This document shows positions 13,527-44,407 of a DNA stretch of 44,407 nucleotides, one piece after another. A model generated the notes under the pieces. That model ran no database searches, was not told where the DNA came from, and saw only the letters and a program-made list of their open reading frames with translations. Location: positions 1 through 44,407 of IMG/VR virus record IMGVR_UViG_3300044713_000046. One strand, written 5' to 3'. The number at the start of each line of letters is the position of its first letter. Positions within the stretch are counted from its first letter, which is position 1. Source of the DNA: a virus. Position numbers and translations under genes: made by a program.

Positions 13527-13964
13527 ATGTTTTCTCAGAGATCGTTTCAAGGCGAGGTCTTTGTGGACCATCGCGCTAGTCCCGGCTTGCCTGAGCACAT
13601 CGCTCGATTGGCCGGATATGACCCGCAGCAGTGCAAGGAGGGGCAGTTTTTCGAAGCTGCATCCAAGTACTGTTCTCACTGTAGAGCGCGAGTTATTTTG
13701 AATCCAAGCCGGACTCGCGAGCGTGCGACCTGCTTGAAGTGCGCCAGTCATTATATTTGTGATTGGTGCGATGCAGAGCGCCGGCAACCCGGCTACGTCC
13801 ACAAGCCTTTCGAGGCTAAACGTGATGAGGCTATATCATGGCAAAGCGCACCTTCTCTGGTGGTTCCTTCTCATACACAGCAGTCGCCCTTGGTACTGCG
13901 CCCGCAAGCGGATCAGGAATGGGGATCATCTGCGGTAGCGCCACTCAATACATCGACATTTTAG
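13527..13964 (+). CDS. Zinc-ribbon-containing phage protein
   Basis: A 145-aa frame with three CxxC-type pairs (CSHC, CLKC, CDWC, about residues 48-80) forming one or two zinc sites. They are preceded by VDHRASPGLPEHIARLAGYD, a sequence pattern seen in phage proteins next to structural genes. The last 42 codons overlap the next gene (13838), which has a convincing start, so the C-terminal part here is probably dictated by the overlap or the gene once ended earlier. Role unknown. Confidence 0.65.
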   Translation: MFSQRSFQGEVFVDHRASPGLPEHIARLAGYDPQQCKEGQFFEAASKYCSHCRARVILNPSRTRERATCLKCASHYICDWCDAERRQPGYVHKPFEAKRDEAISWQSAPSLVVPSHTQQSPLVLRPQADQEWGSSAVAPLNTSTF

Positions 13965-14353
13965 AATGCACGGTGCAGGGGACAGCGACGGCGAGTAATG
14001 TGTTTGGCGGGTGTCTTGCTCGTTGTAGCACTGCCAGCGCAACCAGGACGGCGCTTACTTCGCCGGCATCGGATGGTCCGCAGAATCCGTTTACTGCTGT
14101 TCTTGGCGCTCCGGCGGGCACTTATACTGCCGCAACCACGATGGGCACTCCATCTTCGGCCGCGACAGACACCAAGTTCCCGCTGGTGATCAACGGCTTT
14201 GGCGGTTTGTATCGCGAGAACTTTGCTCCGACCCAGCAATTCTCAATTTACGGAACTACCACGCCATTGGCTGAAGCGATTATTTTCAATTCCACTAGTT
14301 TTGCTGGAACGACGGGCTCAGCAGCGGTTGCGATGATTTACGAGCCGATGTGA
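13838..14353 (+). CDS. Beta-rich structural protein, 171 aa
   Basis: Starts MAKRTFSGGSFSYTAVALGT. It is Gly/Ala/Thr/Ser-rich with short strands and ends AVAMIYEPM; hydrophobic but with no membrane helix, typical of a virion surface or decoration protein. It begins inside the preceding zinc-protein gene (127-bp overlap). No family recognised. Confidence 0.6.
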   Translation: MAKRTFSGGSFSYTAVALGTAPASGSGMGIICGSATQYIDILECTVQGTATASNVFGGCLARCSTASATRTALTSPASDGPQNPFTAVLGAPAGTYTAATTMGTPSSAATDTKFPLVINGFGGLYRENFAPTQQFSIYGTTTPLAEAIIFNSTSFAGTTGSAAVAMIYEPM

Positions 14354-14361
14354 GGTGAGCC

Positions 14362-14769
14362 ATGGCTGCCGGAACACCAACGGACACTGATAGCTATTTT
14401 TTGTCTCAAAGCCCGGTATTTCAGCACCGGGTACAGACCGCTGTGATTGTGTACATGGAAGTAGTGGAGAGCGAAATTCCTACTGGCGTTACGGGAACCA
14501 TGCCGGATGTGGTACACCAGGCTCGTATGAATTTTGTCAAATCGGTAATGAGCCCTTCGAGTTTCACTACTTGGATGACGCAGTTTGTACAAGCTGCGGC
14601 CTCGGATGCCAATGTGGTCTCTGCGGCAACTAATGCTACTGTGACCTACACTCCTATCACTTCGTCTTCGATTGGGGATACTGCAGCAGCAGAGGGCGGA
14701 CTTGTAACCACGACATTGATATCGAACGCAGTCGCTGCTTCGTTCAATACGTTCGTGCCTGGTATCTGA
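14362..14769 (+). CDS. Hypothetical structural protein, 135 aa
   Basis: MAAGTPTDTDSYFLSQSPVF, then a helical central part (MPDVVHQARMNFVKSVMSPS) and a Thr/Ala-rich C-terminus. It starts 8 bp after the previous stop behind GAGGTGAGCC. It belongs to the cassette between portal and scaffold. No family recognised; virion location is inferred. Confidence 0.6.
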   Translation: MAAGTPTDTDSYFLSQSPVFQHRVQTAVIVYMEVVESEIPTGVTGTMPDVVHQARMNFVKSVMSPSSFTTWMTQFVQAAASDANVVSAATNATVTYTPITSSSIGDTAAAEGGLVTTTLISNAVAASFNTFVPGI

Positions 14770-17045
14770 TGTCGCAAGGTTGCCGGCCTGGACCAGGCAG
14801 TGGCGCGTCTGCAAATCCGGGTCAGATACTGATCAATCCGCAATTCATGCTGACTTCGGGAGGCTATGAACTTCTCGATTTAATGAAGATGTTGGATTTT
14901 TCTGCCGGTTGGACTACTGCCAGTAGCGGCGACATGTCACCTGCCAATATGGACGCGAATGGCTATCCGACATCGTTACCGCTTGGGGCAGTTCGTTCTC
15001 AAACGTCTACCCCAGGGGCGGGTCGGATCGGTCAATCTGCCCAGCATTATGTTCTGAGATTTGATGGCACAGGTACGGCTACCTGTGATGGAACGGTTGT
15101 AAGCGGTTCTCTAACTGGAGCGGGTCTCAACAATCGAGTCGTGATGGACACGACCGGCCATACCAACGTATTCATTGGCATTTCGGCAACGCCAGTGACT
15201 AATATGCACTTCTATCACATTGATGACGAGCCTGCTTTCTTGGCTGGTAAGATTGCAGGAACACAATTCAAGCAGCGGATCAAGCAGGCTCAGTCACCTG
15301 TTTTTCGTAATTTGAATTGGTTCGGGCCAGAGTTTGGTGGAACTAATCTGTGTAACGTTACTAACTGGGCAGCGCGCAAGCCAACAACTTATGTCAGTTA
15401 CAATGGGGATGAGTTCCGATCCTCATTATTTGCCGGAACCACCACGAACTCGGGGAATGATTACTCGATCACGTTCGGGTCTGGTGCGCCGGTCGATAAG
15501 CAGATCATCCATTTGTACTTTAATGCATCTCAAGCAGATACTTCGACGTGGAATGGCAGTTCTAGCACTCTGACGTTCGCCTCTGGCACGCCTGGCACGG
15601 TTAATTGGGGGGCGACGCTTCCTGCGAGCGTTGTTGCAAACGTTCCCATCTTGTTTGGCGGTTTTGCCGGGTTCAATGCTCCGCCGGATATTGTGCAATA
15701 CAGCACATATTATGTAAAGACCGTCACAGGGGCGCAGACTTTTACGATTTCGAAAACGCCAGGCGGTGCGGCTATTAATTTTTCTACGTCTGGTGGCAGT
15801 GGTGTTGTGGCCGTTCGCGCACCCTCTCTGAACCTAAATAGCACTGTAGCTGTGCCTATTTGGGATCAGCGTATGCAGATTATGTGGGGGCCCGGTGCTA
15901 ACCTGATAGCACTTAATCCAAACCAAAACTCAGGAACAACCAGCTCTATAGCTACCCTTGTCTACGATGCTGGTATCAACGTTTGGACGTTGTGGGGCGG
16001 CACAGCTTCAAACCCAGCCGGAATTGGTAGCGGCATTCCGCCTGAGGTATTTCTGCAGCTTTGTGCCGAGATAGGTTGCCATCCTTGGTTTTGCTCGCCG
16101 CAGTTTGCCTGCGATCCAATGACGGATTGGCACACACAGCTTGCCACGTATTGCAAGGGTAACGCACCATCGTGGATGGTACCGCGATTTGAAATTCTTA
16201 ATGAACCATGGAATATCGGTAATTCGGTTTCTGACTATGCACAGGCTAAGAGTTATTTCAACTGGGGCACCGAGGACCTGGTTAATTTCGTTGGTAAGGT
16301 CGCATCAACTGCCGGTCAGGACATAAGTGCTGTCTATGGAGGCACGCCAGGGACAGGCGCTCAATACCATCTGATGGTCAACGTTCAGACCGGGAATGCG
16401 CCTGGGACTGATAATGATATGCTGAACTCATCGACTTATGTCGGACAAGCGGCAGCAGCACAGTCTGGTTATATAAAGGCTGCGGCAAAGAATTACCTGA
16501 CGCATGTTTCTGTCAACCAGTATATGAACTCAGGGGAAAATCAATCGACTGCTGCTACTGCTTGGAACACTGCGACCGGTGGCACGATACAGCTGGTGAT
16601 CGATGCGTACCTCGATGGCACAGGACCTGGCGGCAATGGGTTCACCCCAACGGGTGTTGGCTTTGCTGCTTCTGCTGGAGCCAATTCGAATGGTGTGCTC
16701 GGGATGTCATCCGTTTATAGCTCGACATTTACATGGTGCCAGGGATTTACAAATCTTGCCGGCAACAAGATCAGGATGTGCGGGTATGAAGGTGGATTGG
16801 AGTTGGGCAACAACAACTTTCCGTCTGCGACCGTATTGAATTTCTGGAATGCGTGCATGAACAGCGGCACAAATACAAAGTTGTATTGCACGCAGAATTA
16901 TAACAATTTCCTGTCTGCTGGCGGTGAGCGTCCTGCTCTGTTCCAGCTTTCAGGACAAACTCAAGACAATTCATGGTCTTGCTTAATAGATGTCTATCAA
17001 TCGCCTGATCCGCTTGAGTGGCAGGCAGTGGTGAGCTTTGCCTGA
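14769..17045 (+). CDS. Glycoside-hydrolase-like virion protein (clan GH-A type)
   Basis: A 758-aa protein. Residues about 360-740 look like a (beta/alpha)8 hydrolase: FEILNEPWN puts a candidate acid/base at Glu479, and MCGYEGGLE puts a candidate nucleophile at Glu674. That is the NEP...E arrangement of clan GH-A enzymes such as cellulase-like families. The first about 350 residues are beta-rich and could be a virion-attachment or carbohydrate-binding part. There is no signal peptide, consistent with assembly into the particle. It may degrade capsule or exopolysaccharide during adsorption. It is coupled by TGATG to both neighbours. Exact GH family not assigned. Confidence 0.7.
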   Translation: MSQGCRPGPGSGASANPGQILINPQFMLTSGGYELLDLMKMLDFSAGWTTASSGDMSPANMDANGYPTSLPLGAVRSQTSTPGAGRIGQSAQHYVLRFDGTGTATCDGTVVSGSLTGAGLNNRVVMDTTGHTNVFIGISATPVTNMHFYHIDDEPAFLAGKIAGTQFKQRIKQAQSPVFRNLNWFGPEFGGTNLCNVTNWAARKPTTYVSYNGDEFRSSLFAGTTTNSGNDYSITFGSGAPVDKQIIHLYFNASQADTSTWNGSSSTLTFASGTPGTVNWGATLPASVVANVPILFGGFAGFNAPPDIVQYSTYYVKTVTGAQTFTISKTPGGAAINFSTSGGSGVVAVRAPSLNLNSTVAVPIWDQRMQIMWGPGANLIALNPNQNSGTTSSIATLVYDAGINVWTLWGGTASNPAGIGSGIPPEVFLQLCAEIGCHPWFCSPQFACDPMTDWHTQLATYCKGNAPSWMVPRFEILNEPWNIGNSVSDYAQAKSYFNWGTEDLVNFVGKVASTAGQDISAVYGGTPGTGAQYHLMVNVQTGNAPGTDNDMLNSSTYVGQAAAAQSGYIKAAAKNYLTHVSVNQYMNSGENQSTAATAWNTATGGTIQLVIDAYLDGTGPGGNGFTPTGVGFAASAGANSNGVLGMSSVYSSTFTWCQGFTNLAGNKIRMCGYEGGLELGNNNFPSATVLNFWNACMNSGTNTKLYCTQNYNNFLSAGGERPALFQLSGQTQDNSWSCLIDVYQSPDPLEWQAVVSFA

Positions 17046-18655
17046 TGGCAACCACTAATGACAATACCGGCACAGCATCAACGACTGCTGCGGTTGCTAC
17101 CTTAAGCGTTACGTTTACTGTTAGCGCTTCTGCTACAGCTATTTGGGCAGGTCTTGAGACTGACGTAGCCACGTCGGCGGTTACTTGCGTTTATGATCCT
17201 ACTGGAGTCAATCAGTCTTTTACTGCTATCGGTTCTGCCATCGGTGGCGGTGGTCAACACATCTACGCTTTTGGTTTGGTTAATCCAGGTGCGTCAGGTT
17301 CTAGAGTTGTCAAATTTAGTTGGACGACTTCCTCACGTGGTGCTTGCGGTGTCCAATCGTATTTAGGCACAGCCACTACTAGTGTTGCCAATACGTTTTA
17401 TAATAACAATACTGCCACTGGAGCAACCGGCACTACAGCACCTGTAGTGATAACCAGTCAAACAGGTGACTTGGTAGTTGGTCTTGTATGCGCTGACAAT
17501 ACGATCAGCTCGGTAAGCGGAACTCAGATTTGGCTTGATAACGCTCAATCTGATGATGGTGGCCATTACACGACTGGAGCCGCAACAGTCACATTGACTG
17601 CTGGTGTTCTCAGCGGATCGAATTGGGCGCACCAGGGATGTAGTGTTAGGCAATCGACAGCAGTTAGTCTACCTCCTGGCGGTCGATCGTTTGATACACC
17701 ACAGCCTGATCGCAACACCAATACCTACAATCCGCAGCTAAGGCATTGGCAGGCAGCCGCTCGGTTTCTGCTGATCGGGCAGGATCAGTTTCCGCCTGGA
17801 GTCATGCCAGGCAATCCGGTCTACCAACCGCCTCCTGCTTGGTTGGTGCCAGAGCGTTGGGCGCAATGGCGCTCTTGGACGTGGAGTTACAACCTAAACC
17901 TGATCGGGAAGGATCAGTTTCCACCAGGAATATTTCCTGGTAATCCGGTATACCAGCCTCCACCGGCTTGGCTCGCACCTGAAAGATGGGCGCAATGGCG
18001 TAGCTTTGCCTGGCAGTACAATCCGCTGCTGCATGTGGTGGCTCAGCCTCCCGGTGTCCAGCTTGATGAGACTCCTGCGGCCTGGCTGGTTCCGGAACGG
18101 TTTGCTCAGTGGCGTACCTGGACGTGGAGCTATAACCTAAATCTGATTGGCCAGGATCAGCTGCCGCCTGGCAGCATATGGGACAGGCTGGTCCCTGCAT
18201 GGTTCTTTACTGACCCGTTCGCGCGGTGGCGTTCTTGGACGGGCTCTTACAATCTCAACCTGATCGGGAAGGATCAGTTACCGACCGGAGATCAGACCAA
18301 CTACTTGCCGGTTGGCAATGCGTGGCGTCCTGAATCGCCTCAGCAGAACATTCTTGCAACGATACTTGCAGTTGTTCCGGCGTTGCCGCCTGGCAAGCAG
18401 GTTTGGGAGCTGTCACCTCGTGCTGCCGATCCGTTTGCGCAATGGCGCTCTTGGACTGGCAGCTACAATCCTAACCTGATCGGTCAGGATGCCTTCCCTG
18501 TTGGTGCGCAATGGGATGATGCGTCACCGAGGGCGGCGCAGCGTGGAATAGACTTCCAGGCTCAGAACCTGTTGCCGACATTATTGTCGGTCATTGCTCA
18601 GTTACCGCCGGGCAGTCAACTCTACGAACGGCCTCGCTTTTTTTTTCTAATGTAG
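17045..18655 (+). CDS. Repeat-rich structural protein, zero-frame part
   Basis: 536 aa from the ATG overlapping the hydrolase stop. Residues 1-about 205 are a beta-rich Thr/Ser/Gly domain. After that come repeats built on WAQWRSWTWSYNLNLIGKDQ followed by PPG and PPPAWLVPER; five WRxW/F copies lie here. The frame ends abruptly, reading FFFLM-stop right after nine T (18638-18646). A -1 shift there continues the same repeats to 19233. Without the shift the protein is truncated. It is likely a fibre- or surface-type virion protein; function unknown. Confidence 0.7.
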   Translation: MATTNDNTGTASTTAAVATLSVTFTVSASATAIWAGLETDVATSAVTCVYDPTGVNQSFTAIGSAIGGGGQHIYAFGLVNPGASGSRVVKFSWTTSSRGACGVQSYLGTATTSVANTFYNNNTATGATGTTAPVVITSQTGDLVVGLVCADNTISSVSGTQIWLDNAQSDDGGHYTTGAATVTLTAGVLSGSNWAHQGCSVRQSTAVSLPPGGRSFDTPQPDRNTNTYNPQLRHWQAAARFLLIGQDQFPPGVMPGNPVYQPPPAWLVPERWAQWRSWTWSYNLNLIGKDQFPPGIFPGNPVYQPPPAWLAPERWAQWRSFAWQYNPLLHVVAQPPGVQLDETPAAWLVPERFAQWRTWTWSYNLNLIGQDQLPPGSIWDRLVPAWFFTDPFARWRSWTGSYNLNLIGKDQLPTGDQTNYLPVGNAWRPESPQQNILATILAVVPALPPGKQVWELSPRAADPFAQWRSWTGSYNPNLIGQDAFPVGAQWDDASPRAAQRGIDFQAQNLLPTLLSVIAQLPPGSQLYERPRFFFLM

Positions 18656-19233
18656 CGCCGTTTGCTTATTCGGTTGCGCCTTGGCCTATAGCGCTTCTTA
18701 CGGCGCTGCCGCCAGGGAAGCAATCATTTGCTTTACCGCCATTAGGGTGGGTTCAGCGGCAAGACTCGCCGCAGCTAAATACGATACCGCTGCTTACGGC
18801 TACAGTTCCTGGGTTGCCGCCGGGTGTGCAGTTTTATGAACTGCCGCCTCGTGTTGCTGATGCATTCGCGCAGTGGCGTAGCTGGACTGGAAGCTACAAT
18901 CTTAACCTGATCGGTCAGGATGCATTTCCGGTCGGGGCACAGTGGGATGATTTATCGCCGGCTGGTAAGGTTCAGTGGCAGGTTACGCCACAGCCTTACA
19001 TGCTGGCGCTACTTGCGACACCGGCGGTACCGCTACCTCCTGGCGTTCAGATGTACGCTCTGCCGCCGCTTGGCGCGATTGACAACTTCGCTCAGTGGCG
19101 CACCGGAGCAAGTTTCAACATTAACCTGACGCCACCGCCACCGCCACCGCCGCCCACAACCGTTGTCTACAATACCGTGTTGCTGTCGATCCCCGGCGGC
19201 ATGTTCAGCATACCCGGAGACCCGCCGTCATGA
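18647..19233 (+). CDS. Repeat-rich structural protein, -1 frame continuation
   Basis: This open frame has no ATG; the best internal start is TTG 18814. It continues the repeats of the preceding frame: WPIALLTALPPGK, then FAQWRSWTGSYNLNLIGQDA and a final FAQWRT copy, an octaproline run and a VLLSIPGG tail. The fused product would be about 729 aa. The join needs a -1 shift on the T9 run (or one more T in the true sequence). Programmed frameshifting, transcript slippage, a real mutation or an assembly error are all possible. Confidence 0.65.
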
Positions 19234-19691
19234 TCCGCAAGATATTTGAGTTCGCAGCGTTCGTGGCGTTATTTGTTGTAGGCGGGTTGTACATTGCTTA
19301 TCTGGTTAATACGGCGTTCGGGCAGGCTAATCCGCCGAGTTGGACGCGATCAGCGCCTGCGACGGATACGGGTTATCCGCCAGGTGCGCAGCCTTTTGTC
19401 ATTACGGGGACAGGAACCACCACAGCTACAGCCACCACTGCTCAGCCTGCGGCCTATCAAAACAGCTTCCTCTGTACGCTGGTTATGACTGAAGCGGGCG
19501 GTACAGGAATTACTGTCAATGGCTCGATCACCAATACAATCAATGGAACGGTTACATTTTCGCAGCTGGGGCAACTGGTTGTGACGTTTACGCCGTGCCT
19601 TCCGAACAATGGTTCGAACATGGTGATCACTGCGCCGACATCGACGGCAGCTACTGCCAGCTCGATAGTCGCGACTGGCTTCTACTACTGA
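19230..19691 (+). CDS. Membrane-anchored or secreted beta-rich protein, 153 aa
   Basis: The N-terminus MIRKIFEFAAFVALFVVGGL is a hydrophobic anchor or signal segment (about residues 5-30), followed by a Thr/Gly/Ala-rich domain with strands (SFLCTLVMTEAGGTGITVNG and on) and two Cys. It overlaps the repeat-protein stop by ATGA. Last gene before the structured leader. No family recognised. Confidence 0.6.
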   Translation: MIRKIFEFAAFVALFVVGGLYIAYLVNTAFGQANPPSWTRSAPATDTGYPPGAQPFVITGTGTTTATATTAQPAAYQNSFLCTLVMTEAGGTGITVNGSITNTINGTVTFSQLGQLVVTFTPCLPNNGSNMVITAPTSTAATASSIVATGFYY

Positions 19692-43907: not shown

Positions 43908-44309
43908 TCACTGCGTCCTGGATCGGCGGCCTCCGCCATCATCGGGAACGCCACTCAGGTGGCCGGCAGCGATCTGCTCATAAATCCATTTGAATTGCTG
44001 CCCGGCCTCGTGCCAGTCGTGATCCGGCCAGAGCAGGCTAGCCGCCTGGACGGTCTGCATAAGGCCGCCAACGCCGGAGTATTCGGACGCGAACGTCACC
44101 TGGATAATGCCGCCTGGCCTTCGATAGACGCCGCCGATCTTGTTGACGAACAGCGTAGGGGCCAAAGGATTTGGCGTGTAGGCTGTAAGTTCGATCATTT
44201 CTACCCTTCCCCCAGGCCCGCGCCTCACTTCCACACCATGTGGAACACGGCCCCGAATTGTGGCAGACCGAACACGTGGTGTCCGCTTTTTAGCCACGAT
44301 CGTCGTCAT
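43908..44309 (-). CDS. Hypothetical protein, 133 aa
   Basis: ATG 44309 lies 9 bp after AGGAG; a GTG 18 bp upstream is less likely. Basic N-terminus (MTTIVAKKRTPRVRSATIRG), then a compact domain with NPLAPTLFVNKIGGVYRRPG and GIIQVTFASEYSGVGGLMQT, a DW.EAG..F.W helix, and a Gly/Arg tail. No family recognised. It faces the Cro-like gene and its start lies in the duplicated contig end, so the complete upstream region must be read across the circle. Confidence 0.7.
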   Translation of the reverse strand: MTTIVAKKRTPRVRSATIRGRVPHGVEVRRGPGGRVEMIELTAYTPNPLAPTLFVNKIGGVYRRPGGIIQVTFASEYSGVGGLMQTVQAASLLWPDHDWHEAGQQFKWIYEQIAAGHLSGVPDDGGGRRSRTQ

Positions 44310-44407
44310 AGCGACACACTCCTGCACGGGTCAAGGGAATTTTCTACAACCACATACAACCTAAGTAGCGGCAGCGCCCGTACTCAGCTTCAGACGCTGC
44401 CGCCGTG
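44281..44407. repeat. Right copy of 127-bp terminal direct repeat (circular overlap)
   Basis: Identical to bases 1-127. Joining the two copies gives a circular molecule of about 44,280 bp in which the leftward gene starting at 44309 is preceded by the repeat-rich region now at 30-360. Confidence 0.95.

Follow-up and report, generated by a model that had tools for sequence, protein, structure and literature searches.

Introduction

Frameshift sites of the phage lambda type occupy a conserved position and lie in tail-assembly chaperone genes. In Shigella flexneri mxiE, transcriptional slippage on a U run joins mxiEa and mxiEb (PMC1088944, PMC6260861); the bacterial polymerase slips on runs of nine T, mostly by insertion (PMC6260861; PMC1088944), and the slippage threshold is at about nine A or nine T in a row (PMC1088944). 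In Citrobacter rodentium tssM1, slippage on an 11-A tract rescues an interrupted gene and yields about 25% of rescued protein (PMC4256274). In the GeneTack survey, a frame break that stands alone in an otherwise intact family was usually put down to an indel or an error (PMC3711429).

The window analysed here, that is the whole stretch of 44,407 bases, comes from a phage of the P22-portal type (portal PF16510, capsid PF13252/phrog_334, head closure phrog_578) and carries a gene for a repeat protein that is broken at a tract of nine T (T9) and continues in the -1 frame. The locus resembles mxiE in having a T9 tract, two overlapping frames, a stop soon after the tract and a longer product upon insertion of one U, while slippage in mxiE has been experimentally demonstrated and is required, whereas the window case is known from sequence and its tract is absent in relatives. 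As in tssM1, one member of an otherwise intact family is interrupted at a homopolymer and the remainder is conserved in another frame; the differences are that tssM1 has A11 instead of T9, that it is a bacterial secretion gene and that both of its forms have been shown to be needed (PMC4256274). With the phage lambda G/GT tail-assembly gene the locus has in common that a phage gene is read in two frames through a -1 shift, but the window site lacks conservation, lies in a podovirus-type cargo gene and has no clear stimulator.

Results

The repeat gene and its T9 tract

The repeat gene starts with a single-base overlap with the previous gene (TGATG, 17043-17047). The first-pass annotation had described a frame from 17045 to 18655 ending just after the nine T, with the repeats carrying on in the -1 frame to 19233, where they overlap the next gene by ATGA, and products of 536 and 729 aa; exact coordinates and translation agreed with this description and both lengths were reproduced from the two frame readings. 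The features of the locus are listed below; L002 denotes the closest phage found, a sister phage of the window phage, and L086 the closest architectural homologue of the repeat gene.

17045 to 18655, plus strand: portion of the repeat gene read in frame 0, 536 aa, with a beta-rich N-terminal domain (about residues 1-205) and the first repeats, from translation and alignment with L086
18638 to 18646, plus strand: T9 tract and site of the frame change, at exact position, with no T-run this long in 1.17 Mb of relatives
18647 to 19233, plus strand: -1 continuation of the repeat gene, with more repeats, a proline run and a C-terminal end common with L002, from the open frame, synonymous divergence and codon likelihood
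18653 to 18655, plus strand: frame-0 stop TAG, two codons past T9
19162 to 19233, plus strand: last 24 codons (VVYNTVLLSIPGGMFSIPGDPPS and the stop), shared by the window gene with its uninterrupted counterpart in L002, with nine differences, all synonymous
19230 to 19691, plus strand: next gene, 153 aa, with a signal-peptide-like start, overlapping the -1 stop by ATGA (19230-19233), with 98% identity to its L002 counterpart, where the junction is the same

Located at about 73% of the length of the gene, the tract has the frame-0 context CGC TTT TTT TTT CTA ATG TAG, and the 536-aa product ends in RPR FFF LM. The -1 frame is open from 18520, just after a TGA at 18517-18519, to the TGA at 19231-19233, and it encodes the repeats LPPG, FAQWRSWTGSYNLNLIGQD and FAQWRTG; reading in this frame from T9 onward gives 729 aa. 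Both frames are open over only 136 bases (0.3% of the window) and the switch must fall there. T9 is the sole homopolymer of at least 9 and the only T-run of at least 7 in the 44,407 bases, while the 1.17 Mb of related phage contigs contained no T-run of at least 9, the runs found there being T8 (three times) and A9 (once). Since the switch is confined to the 136-base overlap and T9 is absent from the 1.17 Mb, the presence of this tract at the frame change is not due to chance. The arrangement is that of slippage sites of the mxiE and dnaX type, with about nine or more A or T inside a coding sequence followed by a stop (TAG at 18653). A frame-0 heptamer of the form X XXY YYZ, T TTT TTT, is also present, as it is in any T9.

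One gene across the tract

Judged by codon-usage likelihood, coding passes from frame 0 into frame -1 in the stretch from about 18540 to about 18690. The profile of the repeat RxWTxSYNxNLIGQDxLPxG gave six hits 5' and three hits 3' of T9 in the window gene. Comparison of the repeat copy at 18386 (frame 0) with that at 18817 (frame -1) revealed 16 synonymous and 7 non-synonymous differences among 45 codons, with 19 of the 29 base changes at third positions, and all nine differing sites in the final 24 codons were synonymous with respect to L002, the 23 shared residues being VVYNTVLLSIPGGMFSIPGDPPS. The repeat unit that crosses T9, when read in the -1 frame, spans 35 residues from PPG to PPG as counted by eye, the usual length of that type being 35-36. 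The 195 codons of the -1 frame contain neither a stop nor any other damage.

Because the switch in codon likelihood, the synonymous divergence of repeat copies and from L002, and the usual length of the T9-crossing unit all agree, 17045-19233 is one gene split at T9; the earlier suggestion that both halves belong to one gene family product is thereby borne out. The downstream half was also considered as a separate gene and rejected: the -1 frame has no ATG, GTG or TTG until the TTG at 18814, which is inside a repeat.

Protein type and the repeat-protein family

The window repeat protein, in which alternating Trp/Pro-rich repeats come after the N-terminal domain, had no PHROG match at E 0.001. 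Its N-terminal domain is 32% identical to that of L086, and phrog_553, a minor tail protein, is matched by the corresponding domains of L086 and L103 with E values of 1.9e-5 and 2.1e-12, respectively. The likeness to phrog_553 is by way of these two proteins, one of which aligns with the window domain; the window protein itself gives no match and its repeat region belongs to no described family. Since the L086 and L103 domains match phrog_553 and a third family member, L112, has a laminin-G domain, we infer that the repeat protein likely has a role at the virion surface. An AlphaFold model of the N-terminal domain had a mean pLDDT of 43 and contained strands only, and it did not enter a fold search.

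A repeat profile with the consensus RSWTWSYNLNLIGQDxLPxG was run on viral_contigs and on bacterial genomes, and degenerate profiles were needed. This search revealed 28 loci in viral_contigs, while the pattern hits in bacterial genomes led to no confirmed locus. The hits of each locus share one open frame, 102-1502 aa in length, and contig ends cut some of these ORFs. All 25 distinct repeat-family ORFs from other viral contigs (16,436 aa) are uninterrupted; none of their 16,436 residues form an encoded FFF, and their T-runs are of 3-7 only, the longest one lying in the N-terminal domain of L091, outside the repeats. L086, which is on the same contig as L091, encodes 532 aa with an N-terminal domain followed by FAQWR/PPG repeats in one frame. 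In L002 the gene at the same position is a different repeat gene, of 364 aa and uninterrupted.

The comparison with relatives proposed in the first-pass annotation, in which a conserved T9 and frame offset would support programming, thus found neither: L086/L091, L002 and the other family ORFs each consist of one frame and have no comparable T-tract. The repeats of these intact relatives have diverged from those of the window, and they indicate that the family needs no frameshift rather than providing a test of the exact T9 site. No second copy of the tract region, with tract lengths of 5-16, was found in viral_contigs, collections from which records very near the window may be absent; no cultured-phage relative of either half was detected by tblastn or DNA search, and exact peptides of both halves had no match in viral_contigs except at the L002 C-terminus. 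From these comparisons the T-tract appears to be private to the lineage of the window phage.

The long Trp/Pro-rich repeat proteins with the motifs YNxNLIGQD, FAQWRSW and PPG are apparently a widespread, undescribed family of uncultured phages: tblastn revealed no cultured phage carrying the family (the window gene, L086 and L091-L118), and Pfam and PHROGs do not cover it as a whole. The N-terminal domains vary and may be of the phrog_553 type, laminin-G or Gly-rich. Two further candidates were rejected. L112 was considered as a second split gene and has a normal stop/start overlap before the laminin-G domain; L087, a repeat match of the first round, is a chance match in a helicase-like protein. 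As to a possible origin of the tract from a neighbouring repeat unit, DNA alignments suggest material inserted with respect to the A-type units but are too loose to serve as proof.

Genome setting and gene module

Positions 1-127 and 44281-44407 are identical and constitute an exact 127-bp direct terminal repeat. Because of this identity the record probably represents the whole genome as a circular map, 44,280 bases long. A terminal overlap of the 127-bp kind was not found in the L002 record, and no host-linked record was found for the window phage.

The capsid protein of L002 is 99% identical to that of the window phage and the scaffold and capsid DNA is about 95% identical, while the cargo block between portal and scaffold, which holds the repeat gene, has been replaced wholesale between the two phages. 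Among capsid relatives the size of this block ranges from about 1 to 7 kb. Long repeat proteins with other motifs, each in one frame, are encoded at the equivalent place upstream of the scaffold in L002, L058, L011, L013 and L024, which suggests that repeat motifs turn over rapidly at this gene position. The genes in question are L013:4411-7926, L011:1692-3575, L024:6664-8322, L058:7483-8385 and L002:7348-8442; their repeats are of the types FSESPxAFKxP/DISFLQIAYTP, TVQEQPxHP, NPAQPFxQxxW and Arg-rich, and several of them end in a similar RARRRGRR-like tail. Repeat profile A1 had no match in 42 capsid-relative records; the repeat genes present in some of them carry other motif types.

Two genes located upstream in the window accompany the repeat gene elsewhere.

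13527 to 14353, plus strand: gene pair comprising a CxxC-type gene (13527-13964) and a gene for a small beta-like protein (13838-14353)

Of 21 repeat-family loci, 16 (among L092-L118) also have homologues of both genes on the upstream side of the repeat gene, in phages with no detectable similarity to the other window genes. Because of this recurrence, the repeat gene is part of a shared or mobile module of uncultured phages. In the window the gene at 13527 is without the conserved C-terminal stretch and stop of its relatives (13800-13964) and runs 127 bases into the next gene, an altered end that looks like a small deletion. The gene immediately preceding the repeat gene, 14769-17045, encodes a 758-aa protein that has no Pfam or PHROGs match and whose FEILNEPWN motif resembles the one in clan GH-A glycoside hydrolases.

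Discussion

The reading that we favour, and hold to be probable, is that of a real and recent tract-length frameshift, specific to this lineage, in a fast-evolving and probably virion-exposed protein, the site being leaky rather than a conserved two-product switch. The T-tract would have arisen within one repeat unit in this lineage, and its length of T9 would now put everything downstream of it in the gene into the -1 frame at the DNA level. Such a tract may be unstable in length and possibly phase-variable, with in-frame and out-of-frame lengths interconverting, and RNA polymerase slippage on the nine T would add one U and give some in-frame messages, the products being mostly the 536-aa form with a minority of the 729-aa form. 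Tracts of nine T are known to slip during transcription, and full-length protein is therefore probably still produced to some extent. The C-terminal half is without any decay, which counts against this reading; it might be explained by the passive leakiness of the site or just by how recent the change is. A conserved programmed frameshift is unsupported because the site is seemingly private to the lineage. Of the interpretation first given to the locus, the single gene, the -1 change at T9 with repeats on both sides and the slip-prone length of the tract stand, while a programmed, conserved site does not: the annotation had itself named relatives with one uninterrupted frame as a refutation, and such are the relatives found.

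The same tract could instead be a newly evolved and selected recoding site, where the 536-aa and 729-aa forms would be produced in a useful ratio by transcriptional slippage or by -1 frameshifting of the ribosome; we regard this as rather unlikely. A slippery T9 with a stop right behind it, as in mxiE, a frame-0 heptamer U UUU UUU, a C-terminus under purifying selection and a run of a length otherwise absent from related genomes are all in its favour, as is a possible 10-bp stem from 5 nt past the tract, a stem length found at 2.4% of gene positions; the rarity of T9 in these genomes is as compatible with a retained site as with a mutation. Against this, the tract is missing from the relatives, none of which needs a frameshift, and no upstream Shine-Dalgarno-like stimulator is evident. 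Downstream folding energy also speaks against it, since it reaches only the 4-40th percentile within the gene, according to the size of the folding window, with z from -0.3 to -2.3; a downstream RNA structure would be at most a weak candidate for a frameshift stimulator. Slippage of the ribosome by -1 on U UUU UUU is possible, with an unremarkable structure downstream. In a hypervariable surface-type repeat protein a newly evolved T9 slippage (or phase-variable) site might set the ratio of short to long forms per population, a proposal that we put forward tentatively.

A plain loss-of-function indel, after which the 536-aa protein alone would be made and the dead remainder has yet to decay, is improbable. 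Loss may be tolerated here since the cargo block is fast-changing and its repeat genes are swapped wholesale, and the repeats 5' of T9 already give a protein as long as the 532-aa homologue L086; nevertheless, the -1 frame remains undamaged over its 195 codons, every change that the C-terminus has undergone since its divergence from L002 is synonymous, and T9 should slip at some rate anyway. A sequencing or assembly error in a true genome with an in-frame tract and an intact gene, the one-base homopolymer error that the first-pass annotation had allowed for, would explain why the only break falls at the longest homopolymer of this genome and affects an otherwise intact family, but it is likewise improbable, because the exact 127-bp terminal overlap, which we take to be what a short-read assembly with k=127 leaves, suggests such an assembly, because no other gene common with L002 is frame-broken and no other single-base breaks occur, and because homopolymers of 6-8 in conserved stretches have the same length as in L002, substitutions aside.

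The preferred reading of a recent and leaky tract-length frameshift makes this locus a case in which a homopolymer frame break can pass for programmed recoding until the gene family is sampled. If T9 is used, it would represent a rare transcriptional slippage in a phage structural-type gene and offer a view of the beginning of such a site; with every other member of the family devoid of it, this would be a recoding site observed at its very origin. The Trp/Pro-rich repeat family, carried in a shared module of many uncultured phages, deserves a study of its own.
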